Assembly (NCBI GenBank): GCA_022567295.1
Contig: JADFHE010000019.1
Location: forward strand, 1 to 36,988
DNA length: 36,988 bases
Source of the DNA: Pseudomonadota bacterium
Lineage (GTDB): Bacteria; Pseudomonadota; Gammaproteobacteria; Steroidobacterales; Woeseiaceae
Direction of reading: 5' to 3'
A program made the translations under genes and the position numbers. The notes under the pieces were generated by a model, which worked only from the letters and a program-made list of their open reading frames with translations, searched no databases and was not told where the DNA came from. Position 1 is the stretch's first letter. Each line of letters starts with the position of its first letter. Below are positions 24,456 through 28,140 of the stretch, piece after piece.

Positions 24456-25718
24456 ATGTCTTCGATACTTACCAAGAAAGTCATTACCTGGGCCTTGTAT
24501 GACTGGGCCAACTCGGCATTCGCTCTTAGTGTGCTGGCTGTCCTGTTTCCTCTCGTGCTCGGCAATTACTGGGGCGAAGCTGACGGTGGCGCGTCGGCAA
24601 CCATTCGATTGGGTTGGATCACTTTTGCCGCCAGCCTGGTCGTATTTCTCGCAGCGCCCATACTCGGCACGATCGCGGACGCAGGAGGCTACCGGAAACG
24701 ATTCCTGCTTCTGTTCGCTGTTGTTGGTGCGCTAGCGACGGCCGGCCTCGGACTGGTGGGGCAGGGCGAGTGGCCGCTGGCGCTGGGATTGTACCTTATC
24801 GCGTCGGTTGGCTTTTACAGTTCGTCCGTCTTTTACGACTCGTTGCTCATCGACGTAACCGAGCCTCGCAATTACAGTTTTGTTTCAACGCTCGGGTATT
24901 CAGTCGGCTATCTCGGCGGCGCTGCGCTGTTGGCGATACATCTCTGGATGTTGAAGTCGCCGCAAACTTTCGGGCTGGAGAGTACGGCCGAAGCGTTTAG
25001 TTATGCCTTTATTTCGGTCGGCATCTGGTGGCTCGTATTCTCATTGCCGTTGTTGTTTTTCGTGCCTGAAAAGCACAGTGCGATCGAGGTAACCAGCGGC
25101 AGGATCCGGGCCGCTTACGCCGAACTCCGTTCGACGGTTCTCGAAATAAGGAAGTATCGCAACGTAATGATTTTTTTGTGCGGCTACTGGCTCTATATCG
25201 GTGGCGTGTTTACTGTGATCTTCATGGCTGTCAACTATGGGCAGCGGCTGGGGTTTGAGGACAGTGACCTCGTCATGGCGTTACTGATTGCGAACTTCGT
25301 CGGCTTTCCGGCGACGTTGATTTACGGTGTGCTCGCGCATCGCTTCGGAGCAAAAAAGGGTATCTACTTTGCATTGTTCGCATATGTTGGTGCCTGCCTG
25401 TGGGGCATCCAGATGACGGACGTCAGGGAGTTCTTCATCATGGCGGTCGTTATTGGAGCCGTGCAGGGTGGCGCGCAGGGCCTCAGTCGTTCGGTGTACG
25501 CAACATTGATTCCGTCGGATCAACCGGGTGAGTTTTTTGGCTTCTACAGTATGACGACGAAGTTTGCGCACGTGCTCGGCCCGGCAATGGTCGCCATTTC
25601 TGCAATGCTTTCGGATGATCCGAAGTGGGTTTTGCTCGCGCTGATGCCGATGTTTCTGGCCGGTACGTTATTGCTCACACTGGTGCGTCTTCCGTCTGAA
25701 GATTCCGCAACAAATTAG
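24456..25718 (+). CDS. UMF1/Atg22-like MFS transporter
   Basis: A 420-residue membrane protein with about twelve hydrophobic helices. The N-terminal ITWALYDWANSAFA is the hallmark of the UMF1 family (related to yeast vacuolar effluxer Atg22) within the major facilitator superfamily. GTIADAGGYRKRF after the second helix is an MFS loop-A type motif. The substrate is unknown. It starts 34 bases after prfC and may be read through from it. It is the last core-like gene before the accessory-looking stretch. Confidence 0.9.
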   Translation: MSSILTKKVITWALYDWANSAFALSVLAVLFPLVLGNYWGEADGGASATIRLGWITFAASLVVFLAAPILGTIADAGGYRKRFLLLFAVVGALATAGLGLVGQGEWPLALGLYLIASVGFYSSSVFYDSLLIDVTEPRNYSFVSTLGYSVGYLGGAALLAIHLWMLKSPQTFGLESTAEAFSYAFISVGIWWLVFSLPLLFFVPEKHSAIEVTSGRIRAAYAELRSTVLEIRKYRNVMIFLCGYWLYIGGVFTVIFMAVNYGQRLGFEDSDLVMALLIANFVGFPATLIYGVLAHRFGAKKGIYFALFAYVGACLWGIQMTDVREFFIMAVVIGAVQGGAQGLSRSVYATLIPSDQPGEFFGFYSMTTKFAHVLGPAMVAISAMLSDDPKWVLLALMPMFLAGTLLLTLVRLPSEDSATN

Positions 25719-25845
25719 ACGGCTGGGCACGATCGTGACCGACGCGTATCAGATCTGGGCTGTCACGGCGTTTCCATTGAGGGTTCGCTTTACACTAAAG
25801 AGCGGCCGGTGTTGCATCGACCGGTTGAAATCGCAACCCGGAATT

Positions 25846-25886
25846 GGTCATTGAGCTAATATTGGTGAAATAGTCCGCTAATGACC
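25846..25886. repeat. Imperfect inverted repeat
   Basis: GGTCATT at 25846-25852 is the reverse complement of AATGACC at 25880-25886. Flanking bases extend the match imperfectly on both sides (TGAGC against GCTA inside, TT against AA outside). It lies between the MFS gene and the riboswitch promoter. Function unknown. Confidence 0.4.
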
Positions 25887-25960
25887 CAAAGGCGACATCG
25901 CCGGACGCTCGAAAAAAGCCCAATTATGTTAACAATCGGGTTATTTCCAGCCACTAGGCG

Positions 25961-25966
25961 TATAAA
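25961..25966 (+). promoter_or_regulatory. Probable -10 element for the riboswitch transcript
   Basis: TATAAA placed so that transcription would begin near 25973-25975, just at the 5' end of the aptamer. No good -35 is visible at normal spacing. The position relative to the aptamer is the main support. Confidence 0.4.
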
Positions 25967-25975
25967 GAAAGCACA

Positions 25976-26090
25976 CCAAACGACAAAGCCAAACCTGTCG
26001 AAAGACAGGGACGGAAAGCCACGGGTCCTCGCTTCCTCCGAGAAGCCATGGACGACTCCCCGAAGGACCCAAGATCGCCGGGCTATCGAA
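25976..26090 (+). promoter_or_regulatory. Cyclic di-GMP-I (GEMM-I) riboswitch aptamer
   Basis: The conserved GEMM-I core is visible: AAAGCCAAACC, a perfect hairpin CCTGTC-GAAA-GACAGG (25994-26009) with the GNRA tetraloop, then GGGACGGAAAGCC ending at 26020. A second stem GGGTCCT (26023-26029) pairs exactly with AGGACCC (26064-26070) and encloses a further GCTTC/GAAGC hairpin. The 3' segment GATCGCCGGGC supplies the conserved C. Aligned by eye with the Vibrio Vc2 aptamer, the position of G20, which selects c-di-GMP, is G. The next pair is C-G instead of G-C on both strands, a compensatory change. It sits in the leader of the secreted-protein gene at 26172. Confidence 0.88.
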
Positions 26091-26171
26091 TTCAATGTTC
26101 GATTGCTTACGAAGTATCGCGACGCTGACCACAGCGTAACAACGAGTACTGGTATTCAAGGGAGAAAAACA

Positions 26172-26708
26172 ATGAAGATTAAAAATATATCCGTCGGTAT
26201 TGCCGGCTTGATCCTGCTTCTTGCGGCTGGCTTGCCGCAGACGGCGCTCGCTAAAGACGTCGAAATGAACCTGCGATTCGCGGGGGCATTTATATCGAAC
26301 AGCCTTCCTAGCGCGTTGATCCACGTGCAAGCTAAGGGCAGCCCGGGCAAAGCGGTAATCCGAGGGTACGGCGCGAGCGGGGCTGCAGATCCAGATCCCG
26401 TTGTGGTCTCAGACTGTTTAAGCGGAACAGACGGCGCATTCCTAAGCATCATAGCCGGGGAAGATCCTCTCATCTTTACCTTCCAGGATTTGTCGCTTTT
26501 GTTCGCCGACGGCAGCGGGGAGATTTGCGTTGATTCAGCGACCGGCAATGCTGAGTTCAGGTTCGACATCACGTTCATAGGGGGCAGAGGGAGATTCGAG
26601 GGCGCGACCGGTACTGCCGTGATTACAGGCGAGGCACAGCCCGTGAGTGCCGACGGATCGTTTCTCGCTGAAACCGGGACGATCGTCGGAACGATTGTCC
26701 TGCCATGA
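26172..26708 (+). CDS. Small secreted beta-rich protein, c-di-GMP riboswitch-controlled
   Basis: A 178-residue exported protein of unknown function. It starts at the ATG at 26172, 8 bases after AGGGAG. The signal peptide is hydrophobic with cleavage after ALA near residue 28. The mature part has no membrane segment and is rich in short beta-strand patterns with Gly/Thr turns. The C-terminal GGRGRFEGATGTAVITGEA and ETGTIVGTI resemble allene-oxide-cyclase/dirigent-like barrels; this is a weak structural guess. Two cysteines (in SDCLSG and GEICVD) could form a disulfide. It is a monocistronic unit: riboswitch leader upstream, strong terminator 51 bases downstream. A biofilm or surface role would fit c-di-GMP control but is inference. 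Confidence 0.85.
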   Translation: MKIKNISVGIAGLILLLAAGLPQTALAKDVEMNLRFAGAFISNSLPSALIHVQAKGSPGKAVIRGYGASGAADPDPVVVSDCLSGTDGAFLSIIAGEDPLIFTFQDLSLLFADGSGEICVDSATGNAEFRFDITFIGGRGRFEGATGTAVITGEAQPVSADGSFLAETGTIVGTIVLP

Positions 26709-26758
26709 CGACGATGGTGATGATGACGGCTGACAATTAACCACCAGTATGTTTCTGG

Positions 26759-26785
26759 AGCCCTGCTTCGGCGGGGTTTCTTTTT
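26759..26785 (+). terminator. Rho-independent terminator
   Basis: Stem CCCTGC / GCGGGG closed by a TTCG tetraloop (26761-26776), extended by an A-T and a G-T pair, followed by TTTCTTTTT. It ends the plus-strand secreted-protein transcript. On the minus strand there is no T-run, so it does not serve the convergent HNH gene. Confidence 0.92.
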
Positions 26786-26835
26786 GCTAAATGCAAAGTC
26801 CGCTTCTGATCGATGCTGCCCTTAGTCGTTGCATA

Positions 26836-28140
26836 TCAAAACAACGCGGATACTGCAGCATTCCAGTCCGTCTGTTCTCCGGCGTGCCATCTGGCGGCAC
26901 ACGTTTCGCTATCGATATTGGCCTCGAAGAACTCCCTATCCATCCATTCTCTTATATCGGCATCGGTGGCAAGGCCCGGAAAATCGGGTGATGGGTCGAG
27001 TGGCTGGGCTCGCTGGTTCCTGAACGTGACGTCACCGTCCTTTTGCTTCACACAGACAAACCCACCCTCGTGAACAAGATGATGATGGTGCCTGCAAAGT
27101 AGTACCAGGTTGTCCAGGCTGGTCTCACCACCATCGGCCCAGTGCTTTATATGGTGCCCGTCGACAAATCGGGTGTTGGTGCAGCCTGGAAAGCGGCATC
27201 CACCGTCTCGAACACGTAACGCACGACGCATTGGAGGTGGAATGGAGCGGGATCGCCGGCCAATGGAGAGTGGTTCGCCGTTTTCATCCTCCTTGATGCC
27301 GACGATGGTGCTGTCGCATGCGATTCGGCGGGATGTTTCCGCGGTAACGTGGGGACCGTCTTCAATATGAGAGTCGCGGGCAGGGCCCGCTCCTACAACA
27401 TGGACAACAACCTGGTAGCGATCGGCGGTGGACCCGGATGACTCATTGTTGTTGAGGTAGGTTTCGGCAATGTCGCTAAGGGCATCGGCACGGCGGGCGG
27501 CGATAGGTTCGGGGCAAGCTTCATTGTCGCGGCCAGGGGCCGCTCCTACAAAGGACGCATCCAATGCCATTTCGAGCGCCTTCACGATTAACGCTCCCTG
27601 CTCGGCAGGAAGTCGCGCCTTTATGACCAGGCACCCGTCGTGATCGTAGTAGTGGCTGACTTCCCGCTGCTTGTATTGCTCGTTCGCAATCTCCGCATCT
27701 TGTAGCCGCTTCGCGGTGCGGTATTTCGATACCAGCTTCTCAACGTGATGTGCTGTGCCGTGCTCGGCGATCATTAGAAGGTAATCTTCATTGGTCTCAT
27801 CGGCGATACGCGTTATTGCACGTACCTTGGAATAGCTCAACTGACCAACAGAAAACGCCTCATTGATCTTCGGTAGCCCGGCCAAGGCATGAGCCACCCG
27901 CAACTTTTCCCTGGCCGCGTTCATGCCGATACCGCATTTGAAATTCAGCCAGTGCGCACAGGAGCAAAGACCCAACGAGGCCCAGTACTGTTTCTCGTCA
28001 AACTCACGGATCAGTCCCAATAATCGGGCCTCTGCGGCGTAGAGATAACTGCAGAGTTCGGTGATTTCAGCGCCGAGTTTTTCGGCCTCCGGGGGACTGG
28101 ACTGAGGTATGACTTCAAGAATTGCGATGGCGGTATACAC
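26836..28140 (-). CDS. DUF222/HNH endonuclease family protein (13E12-like), SOS-box controlled
   Basis: A 434-residue protein. The N-terminal DUF222 helical domain (about 20-190) is followed by a variable region and an HNH nuclease domain at about 315-356, with C315, C320, DGHHIKHWADGG, N344 and C349-RHHHH, so zinc-binding and catalytic residues appear intact. The start is a GTG at 28138-28140 with a strong GGAGG six bases upstream. A LexA-type box covers the promoter about 25 bases before the start. The variable region contains two in-frame 27-base palindromic repeats encoding VGAAPGRD (198-205) and VGAGPARD (249-256). The family is common in actinobacterial 13E12 repeats and scattered in proteobacteria; substrate and role are unknown. 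Convergent with the secreted-protein gene. Confidence 0.92.
   Translation of the reverse strand: MYTAIAILEVIPQSSPPEAEKLGAEITELCSYLYAAEARLLGLIREFDEKQYWASLGLCSCAHWLNFKCGIGMNAAREKLRVAHALAGLPKINEAFSVGQLSYSKVRAITRIADETNEDYLLMIAEHGTAHHVEKLVSKYRTAKRLQDAEIANEQYKQREVSHYYDHDGCLVIKARLPAEQGALIVKALEMALDASFVGAAPGRDNEACPEPIAARRADALSDIAETYLNNNESSGSTADRYQVVVHVVGAGPARDSHIEDGPHVTAETSRRIACDSTIVGIKEDENGEPLSIGRRSRSIPPPMRRALRVRDGGCRFPGCTNTRFVDGHHIKHWADGGETSLDNLVLLCRHHHHLVHEGGFVCVKQKDGDVTFRNQRAQPLDPSPDFPGLATDADIREWMDREFFEANIDSETCAARWHAGEQTDWNAAVSALF
27373..27399 (-). repeat. REP-type palindrome within the HNH gene, copy B
   Basis: On the coding (minus) strand it reads GTTGTAGGAGCGGGC, a three-base loop, then GCCCGCGAC. 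The stem is GCGGGC/GCCCGC, with a conserved TGTAGGA tail as in repetitive extragenic palindromes of Pseudomonas and relatives. It has the same orientation and frame as copy A, 153 bases away. Confidence 0.85.
27526..27552 (-). repeat. REP-type palindrome within the HNH gene, copy A
   Basis: Same length and layout as the copy at 27373-27399, with stem GCGGCC/GGCCGC. Apart from the last outer base, the two copies differ at only two positions, and these are paired partners in the stem, so the palindrome is preserved. Confidence 0.85.

Follow-up and report, generated by a model that had tools for sequence, protein, structure and literature searches.

The leader of a small secreted-protein gene from a bacterium of the family Woeseiaceae is very probably a real RNA switch that senses a cyclic dinucleotide, built in an enlarged shape. 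The window analysed here is a stretch of 36,988 nt, and its aptamer (25979-26091, + strand), judged by sequence, belongs to a known clan, c-di-GMP-I, and has an enlarged shape that is widespread and a conserved pocket of an unusual type. As one of the three letters that touch the ligand is changed, the aptamer may not sense the usual signal, c-di-GMP. It is somewhat probable that the mRNA of a lone dirigent-like protein, which is secreted, starts with a c-di-GMP-I-clan riboswitch that has a long P3 and the pocket G20/A47/U92, and that folding of this riboswitch on the ligand changes the access to the ribosome-binding site. Sequence comparison shows the aptamer with its conserved core, the swapped pair beside the pocket, U92 kept in the close orthologues, and an aptamer conserved above its surroundings; it also shows that no terminator precedes the gene. 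The ligand, control at the level of translation and the switching partner are inferred.

Identification of the aptamer

In a cmscan search, the clan match spans the whole model. RF03167 (c-di-GMP-I-GGC) gives 68.6 bits (E 2.4e-14) against a gathering cut-off of 59, and RF01051 gives 64.0 bits in the genome-wide search against a cut-off of 35, a significant match to the model that a first-pass annotation of this DNA had proposed for its check. The RF01051 search matched none of 14 control genomes. This is also the sole Rfam match above cut-off in the 37-kb window, one lower-scoring, overlapping match of the same clan being omitted from the scan. R1, a covariance model of the relatives described below, scores 131 bits here, the window being part of its training set.

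The first-pass annotation had read the leader as a c-di-GMP-I riboswitch leading a lone secreted-protein gene. The GEMM-I core, the GAAA-capped hairpin and the G at position 20 on which it relied are all found in their places in the cmscan alignment, and the clan match and the gene context agree. The clan was therefore rightly named; c-di-GMP as the ligand is less secure, because G20 is one of three contacts and C92 is a U.

A TATAAA just 5' of the aptamer (25961-25966, + strand) may be a -10 box. The AGGCGTATAAA at this place is also seen by eye in the G054 orthologue, and a sigma-70 scan of 25700-26850 gave no sites.

Six RF01051 matches, five of which are above the cut-off, lie in the host genome (G000), an assembly of 3.0 Mb with a completeness of about 86%. 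A weak one, at 29.8 bits (L006, G000:C20:6506-6584), has the form AAAGCCAAAC...GGGACGGAAA and precedes a short-chain dehydrogenase-like ORF. In two short-shape aptamers of the same genome (L002 and L005), the 3' end touches the start codon (GTTACCAATATG, GTTACCATCATG), so that no separate expression platform lies between them.

Distribution of the long shape

Matches to RF03167 are present in 97 of the 107 genomes of the host's family. They come in two shapes, short (about 80-88 nt) and long (103-116 nt, three of 92 nt). All 14 of the long-shape loci that were examined with cmscan were best matched by RF03167. Among five short-shape loci, four were best matched by RF01051 and one (L004) by RF03167 below the cut-off; cmscan of the sixth, the weak L006, gave no match.

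The model R1 was built from 34 aligned long-shape loci, the window included. At E 1e-6 or better it matches 96 of the 107 family genomes, short shapes also being caught at about 1e-12. It matches 316 of 396 genomes of the order and, at a strict 1e-14, 4 of 369 genomes of the class, two of them of the host genus. Other families of the order also have long-shape matches, their best E values running from 1e-21 to 1e-29; examples are G114, G240, G242, G109, G108, G127, G136, G123 and G259. Altogether, 152 long-shape loci were gathered from 59 genomes of the order, 134 in the family and 18 in other families. They were taken from the top of the R1 and RF03167 score lists and so do not sample the order at random; 149 of the rows are distinct, and the counts leave out L073, which is short-shape, and L353, which was found later. 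The 28 short-shape loci used for comparison are the 24 top RF03167 scorers and four of the host genome, their loops and position 92 being read by eye.

The shape also appears in genomes labelled as lying beyond the class. The exact 22-mer AAAGCCACGGGTCCTCGCYTCC, which spans the 5' edge of the P3 extension, occurs in at least 116 stretches of species-level genomes. Among the 80 matches listed, 15 are titled as coming from outside Gammaproteobacteria, and all 15 match R1: seven from Thermoanaerobaculia (three MAGs), four from Gemmatimonadetes (four MAGs), and one each from Poribacteria, Rubricoccaceae, Bacteroidetes and Deltaproteobacteria, three of these single-label loci lying on contigs of 3.3-3.6 kb that may be binning errors.

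Two divergent pairs of long-shape aptamers were observed within the collection. In G035, L126 (G035:C17:35752-35863, - strand) and L143 (35978-36090, + strand) are 114 nt apart; in G102, L114 (G102:C14:15081-15194, - strand) and L130 (16015-16128, + strand) are separated by about 820 nt.

Architecture of the aptamer

The P2 stem with its GAAA loop (25994-26009, loop 26000-26003, + strand) covaries strongly in the relatives, with 222 double-sided changes against a shuffled mean of 72, a count reached by none of 1000 shuffles (149 distinct rows). Next to it, C44 (26012, + strand) forms the interhelical pair with G26077, which is standard in 148 of 149 distinct loci and nearly invariant on both sides. 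Such a Watson-Crick pair between P2 and P3 is called universal in one study (PMC4744006).

The 5' strand of P3a/P3b (26018-26027, + strand) pairs with 26073-26083, and these positions are 97-99% paired in the relatives. Beyond it lies the P3 extension of 45 nt (26028-26072, + strand), with stretches that are near-invariant and a distal stem (26040-26042/26056-26058) identified by covariation. The distal pair 63/79 changes from C-G to A-U and is paired in 113 of 137 cases as compared to 42% in shuffled rows (0/1000 as high); the distal part of the extension is thus a structured stem. Over the 149 distinct rows, the pair 21-46, P2, P3a and the distal extension stem covary beyond all 1000 shuffles. 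P3b and the UCCU/AGGA pairing (56-59/86-89) are nearly invariant, with paired cells above all but 4 of 1000 shuffles and no double-sided support, and the short P1 has no covariation beyond shuffles (327/1000 as high).

It had been stated earlier that the aptamer has a second perfect 7-bp stem, enlarged by an extra hairpin. The complementarity is there: GGGUCCU (26023-26029, + strand) can pair with AGGACCC (26064-26070), is 96% complementary in the relatives, and gives the more stable fold without ligand in 114 of 120 loci. It excludes P3, with which it competes for GGGUC, and in 149 distinct loci it has no double-sided change and a pairing that 168 of 1000 shuffles equal; it was rejected as the main second stem. 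The enlargement is equally real, not as a local oddity but as an architecture common to the 152 loci in the order.

The docking of P2 on P3 is where the two shapes differ. The window has the GAAA loop of a type I tetraloop/receptor pair, while the UAA-type receptor is absent and the extension stands in its place. Among the 28 short-shape loci, read by eye, 26 have a GNRA loop and 25 a UAA/UCUA-type P3 stretch. At the position of this short-shape receptor, 136 of the 152 long-shape loci carry the CUCG internal loop of the extension, and their P2 loop is CAAA in 66, GAAA in 47, AAAA in 20, UAAA in 16 and other in 3. Since CUCG replaces the receptor and the P2 loop no longer needs to be GNRA while nearly always keeping AAA, we infer from these sequences that P2-P3 docking differs in the long shape.

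The ligand pocket

The pocket positions are given in Vc2 numbering. In Vc2 structures, position 92 pairs with one ligand base; which C of the aptamer corresponds to C92 was taken from the Vc2 structure and is presumably right. The residues in contact with c-di-GMP are named as G20, A47 and C92 in two studies (PMC4744006, PMC11218506), in the first of which mutation of G20 in Vc2 is reported to cause a 30,000-fold loss of binding (PMC4744006).

In the window, G20 is retained at 25988 (+ strand; RF03167 alignment), as in 145 of the 152 long-shape loci, the other 7 having A. A47 is retained at 26015 (+ strand) and is found in 151 loci, with C in one; the RF03167 consensus has G there. The third contact is changed. 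U26086 (+ strand) replaces the usual C92, the count at this position being C 147, U 4 and G 1. A G at the ligand-selecting position, noted in the first reading of this DNA, was thus correctly seen; it covers one of the three contacts, and the U at 92 had been missed.

In the alignment to RF03167, U26086 falls in the unpaired column that precedes the 3' strand of P1, and it corresponds to U92 of the RF03168 consensus. In columns 20/47/92, the consensus of RF03168 ('UAU') reads U, A, U and that of RF03167 ('GGC') reads G, G, C. These letters fit the columns, which supports the mapping of position 92, and from a reading of the consensus lines the Rfam variant names appear to spell positions 20/47/92. 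Under such naming, the window aptamer reads 'GAU' and is none of GAC, GGC and UAU: with RF03168 it shares U92 and has G20 for U20, and the A20 of 3',3'-cGAMP riboswitches (GEMM-Ib) is G25988. Membership of c-di-GMP-I-GGC was rejected despite the best Rfam score, as the naming residue G47 is absent (A47; model consensus GGGACGCGAA). A pattern for G47 aptamers with the same P3 base matched one of 396 genomes of the order (L357), where Rfam reports tRNA matches and no riboswitch.

A20, the letter of cGAMP riboswitches, is seen at seven of the 152 loci (L068, L098, L120, L136, L160, L202, L105). Two of these, L068 (G057:C23) and L098 (G003:C40), combine A20 with C21-G46, and both lie before the same lipoprotein-like gene.

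The pair adjacent to the pocket is C25989-G26014 (+ strand), i.e. C21-G46, where Vc2 has G21-C46. It had been proposed that a change on both strands relative to Vc2 argues for a selected structure, and the relatives bear this out: position 21-46 is CG in 24, GC in 127 and GU in 1 of the 152 loci, and it is a standard pair in 149 of 149 distinct loci with 24 double-sided changes. None of 1000 shuffles reaches 24, so the argument from compensatory change holds.

Conservation of U92 and the controlled gene

The gene behind the leader (26172-26708, + strand) encodes a protein of 178 amino acids with a start that looks by eye like a signal peptide. Long-shape aptamers often precede proteins with such starts (by eye). 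The gene stands alone, with a same-strand MFS/Atg22-type transporter gene (24456-25718) on one side. On the other side lies a convergent DUF222-HNH endonuclease gene (26836-28140, - strand). Searches with the protein gave no match in Pfam (at E 1), PHROGs or NCBIfam (at E 0.1), and one homologue gives a weak Dirigent match below the cut-off (E 0.4). Its AlphaFold2 model, made from 10 sequences, is a beta-barrel with a pLDDT of 73.4, and the best PDB matches of the model are dirigent proteins (E 8.3e-4, TM 0.48). The product is thus predicted, from the model, to be a secreted dirigent-like barrel.

Of the 107 family genomes, 11 have a homologue of this gene, and all 11 belong to the host genus. 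In 7 of the 11 loci, a long-shape aptamer lies directly upstream on the same strand; at the other four (G043, G049, G063, G097), no R1 match was found in the DNA examined around them. U92 is present in four of the 152 long-shape loci: the window, L092 (G054), L146 (G056) and L182. The first three all carry U92 and C21-G46 before the same gene, so a sequencing error at U92 was rejected. The proteins of G054 and G056 are 82% and 86% identical to that of the window, and the next homologue, in G035, is 53% identical and has C92 in its aptamer. L182 appears decayed, as its interhelical C is gone too.

Over the three pairs among the window, G054 and G056, the aptamer is 93-96% identical, third codon positions 77-87%, the leaders 84-86% and the 110 nt upstream of the aptamer 61-62%. 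The aptamer, U92 included, is thus held more tightly than its surroundings. Within P2, pair 20/27 has a compensated change from U-A to C-G in both orthologues, and in each of them a single P2 pair is also broken.

When the order was searched with a pattern for U92, 5 of 396 genomes matched (G000, G054, G056, G133, G076). In G133, which belongs to another family, an independent G20/A47/U92 aptamer (L217, G133:C1:1697759-1697834) precedes a PEP-CTERM-like secreted protein; its best Rfam match is RF03168, below the cut-off (47.7 vs 65.9 bits). The G076 locus (L221) has no Rfam match. In a literature search made mostly outside subscription papers, no report of natural U92 members or of the long-P3 shape was found, nor any that combined 'Woeseia' and 'riboswitch'.

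The ligand and its supply

GGDEF domains number 15 in the host genome, 17 in G054 and 13 in G056. In the host, 11 of the 15 have an intact GHxxGD and GG[DE]EF-like motif, and by these sequences c-di-GMP is very probably made. Two kinds of cGAMP synthase were looked for. A SMODS (DncV-type) enzyme was found in none of six genomes searched, which are 76-100% complete, so that this absence weighs little. A Ser at the specificity Asp of GGDEF domains marks Hypr enzymes, and it is found in none of the 15 host domains, which have Asp in 13 (one without a GGDEF motif), Thr in 1 and Glu in 1. As neither kind was found, a weakened sensing of c-di-GMP by the U92 aptamer appears likeliest, and cGAMP sensing is the bold alternative.

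There is a little less than an even chance that the aptamer is an ordinary c-di-GMP sensor, which works like other GEMM-I riboswitches and in which U92 is neutral or lowers the affinity, being kept since the signal is abundant. The 15 GGDEF domains fit this. Long-shape aptamers with C92 lie before the homologous genes of G073, G074, G102 and G035, and the structure 3MUR is reportedly that of a C92U mutant with c-di-GMP. Crystal structures of Vc2 mutated at G20 and C92 exist, 3MUM, 3MUR and 3MUT being named in PMC9049102. Against it stands the rarity of U92, which 4 of the 152 long-shape loci have and none of the 28 short-shape ones, all 28 having C92 (by eye); U92 is thus not freely tolerated.

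A rather unlikely reading is that the specificity itself is altered, with U92 reading the second ligand base and the aptamer preferring 3',3'-cGAMP in an orientation opposite to that of A20/C92 riboswitches (G by G20, A by U92). The pairing of position 92 with a ligand base would allow this. The Rfam variant families UAU (U20, A47, U92) and GGC already differ exactly at these positions, U92 is kept in two close orthologues, and L217 carries the same pocket independently in another family. The Geobacter cGAMP riboswitch also has C21-G46, and its listed contacts include A14 and C15. An engineered G20A/C92U double mutant of Vc2 binds c-di-AMP (PMC7288161, PMC9049102), and positions 20 and 92 therefore set the specificity together. 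That neither synthase was found speaks against this reading, as does a further long-shape copy in the G056 genome (L128), which has C92. It is likewise a minority prospect that G20/A47/U92 is a further natural pocket of the GEMM-I clan which prefers adenine at the 92 side, most simply in a reversed 3',3'-cGAMP, within a multi-phylum long-P3 shape whose tetraloop receptor has been replaced.

It is distinctly improbable that the riboswitch is dead, U92 having abolished ligand binding and the aptamer surviving as a leader structure. A second long-shape copy in the host genome (L353:601-714, G000:C23:3549-3662) also ends in GGGCTATC like the window copy; its core is degenerate (RF03167 at 22 bits), and the gene that follows it, a relative of one in G004, has an apparently broken frame. 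The lost interhelical C of L182 and the broken P2 pair in each close orthologue point the same way. The window aptamer, however, keeps all its other core residues, is conserved above its surroundings in three genomes, and has the compensated 20/27 change in both orthologues.

Expression platform and proposed mechanism

On the + strand, no terminator-like site was found between the aptamer and the ATG, as had been claimed earlier; the site picked up by the terminator scan (26757-26780, + strand) comes after the gene. As the gene has no terminator in front of it, control at translation is the natural guess. A Shine-Dalgarno sequence AAGGGAG (26158-26164, + strand) lies 7 nt before the ATG at 26172. 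Start codons of 143 of the 152 long-shape loci were chosen by script, and over these 143 the median distance from aptamer to start is 36 nt. In a strict test, where a terminator requires a perfect stem of at least 7, none of the 152 loci of the order has one overlapping the aptamer end.

The same strict test was applied to the 80 listed 22-mer loci over 68 nt from the P3 extension onward. In two of them, both from Gemmatimonadetes (L263:7272-7386 and L280:6526-6641), a U-tailed terminator uses the 3' strand of P3 as its 5' arm; these are two of the four Gemmatimonadetes loci. A folded aptamer should thus allow read-through there, and by analogy this hints at an ON direction.

In the window, an alternative hairpin can form at 26074-26117 (+ strand; -12.7 kcal/mol for the whole and -5.3 for the core AUCGAAU/GUUCGAU at 26085-26103). 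It would take in the P3 3' strand, A91-U92 and the P1 3' strand. Its core is kept in G054, and by eye a weaker version is present in the shorter leader of G056. The mechanism considered somewhat probable, G20/A47/U92 sensing with a change in ribosome-binding-site access, would proceed as follows. P1 and P3 would be stabilised when a cyclic dinucleotide binds, c-di-GMP remaining the most likely one, with a weaker contact at U92. The stabilised helices would keep the 3' strands of P1 and P3, together with A91-U92, from being drawn into the downstream hairpin of the alternative fold, and this change of fold would alter access to the ribosome-binding site. The window would then use the same exchange as L263 and L280, at the level of translation.

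The folding results are mixed. The pairing energy between the aptamer tail and the leader of the window is no better than with shuffled leaders, 35% of which match it; across 119 loci, the pairing of tails with leaders is somewhat stronger than with shuffles (z -3.1), 68 of the 119 lying below their own shuffle mean. In nested folding, which models neither pseudoknots nor ligand, the ribosome-binding site of the window is unpaired at 0.53 with the aptamer fold and at 0.82 with the alternative fold, contrary to what an ON switch would give. The mean shift across 120 loci is small (0.44 vs 0.40) and leans ON (36 vs 21 loci, p 0.046). State-dependent access as a clear switch was rejected, the shift being small and inconsistent.

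An ACGCUG/CAGCGU hairpin before the ribosome-binding site (26122-26137, + strand, -8.3 kcal/mol) had been suggested earlier as the controlling element. It exists, and G054 has a compensated ACGCCG/CGGCGT; it is absent in G056, whose leader has 31 nt.

It is very unlikely that the long-P3 extension is itself the switch, with CUUCCUCC in its 5' strand (26032-26039, + strand) forming a pseudoknot with the ribosome-binding site when P3 is open: aptamer positions 52-63 are indeed the part most complementary to ribosome-binding sites (mean -10.0 kcal/mol, 143 loci) and pair with leaders better than with shuffled ones (z -9.2, 119 loci), as any Shine-Dalgarno complement would, and UCCU is present in 145 of 152 loci, but matched loci do no better than permuted pairs (p 0.11 and 0.15; 0.27 for 37 variant loci) and UCCU already has its partner AGGA within P3. 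An anti-Shine-Dalgarno in the extension as a proven switch was rejected, the complementarity being present and matched loci no better than permuted.

Comparison with known systems

The predicted protein resembles dirigent/AOC-type barrels, its model matching GePTS1 (6ooc; E 8.3e-4, TM 0.48). It differs from them in being a bacterial secreted protein with no Pfam match of its own and about 14% identity.

The known specificity variants of the clan are marked by changes of this kind, conserved and at one of the three ligand contacts. If the ligand differs, the aptamer would represent a second natural way to read a cyclic dinucleotide that contains A; if it is the same, a natural change from C92 to U would show how far the pocket can drift. 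In either case, the long-P3 shape, with 152 loci in 59 genomes of the order, is a large natural test set for a rebuilt docking of P2 on P3.

With RF01051 (Vc2, Vc1, Bc1), the aptamer shares the P1-P2-P3 fold, the AAAGxCAAACC and GGGACGxAAAGCC core, the GAAA loop of P2, G20, A47 and the interhelical C-G pair; it differs in having U92 instead of C92, C21-G46 instead of G21-C46, and a 45-nt P3 extension in place of the UAA-type receptor. With RF03167 (c-di-GMP-I-GGC), which scores best in Rfam, it shares the P3 base CCACGGGUC...GAyxGCCGGGCU, while A47/U92 stand against G47/C92 of the model and the extension is an insertion relative to it. RF03168 (c-di-GMP-I-UAU) has the same U92 and A47, but U20 and GUAA where the window has G20 and a GAAA loop. 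The GEMM-Ib/3',3'-cGAMP riboswitches (Geobacter, 4YAZ) have a C21-G46 pair and a GCCGGGCUGCC-type P3 base in common with the window; their pocket is A20/C92 whereas that of the window is G20/U92, so that the odd letter sits on the other ligand base.
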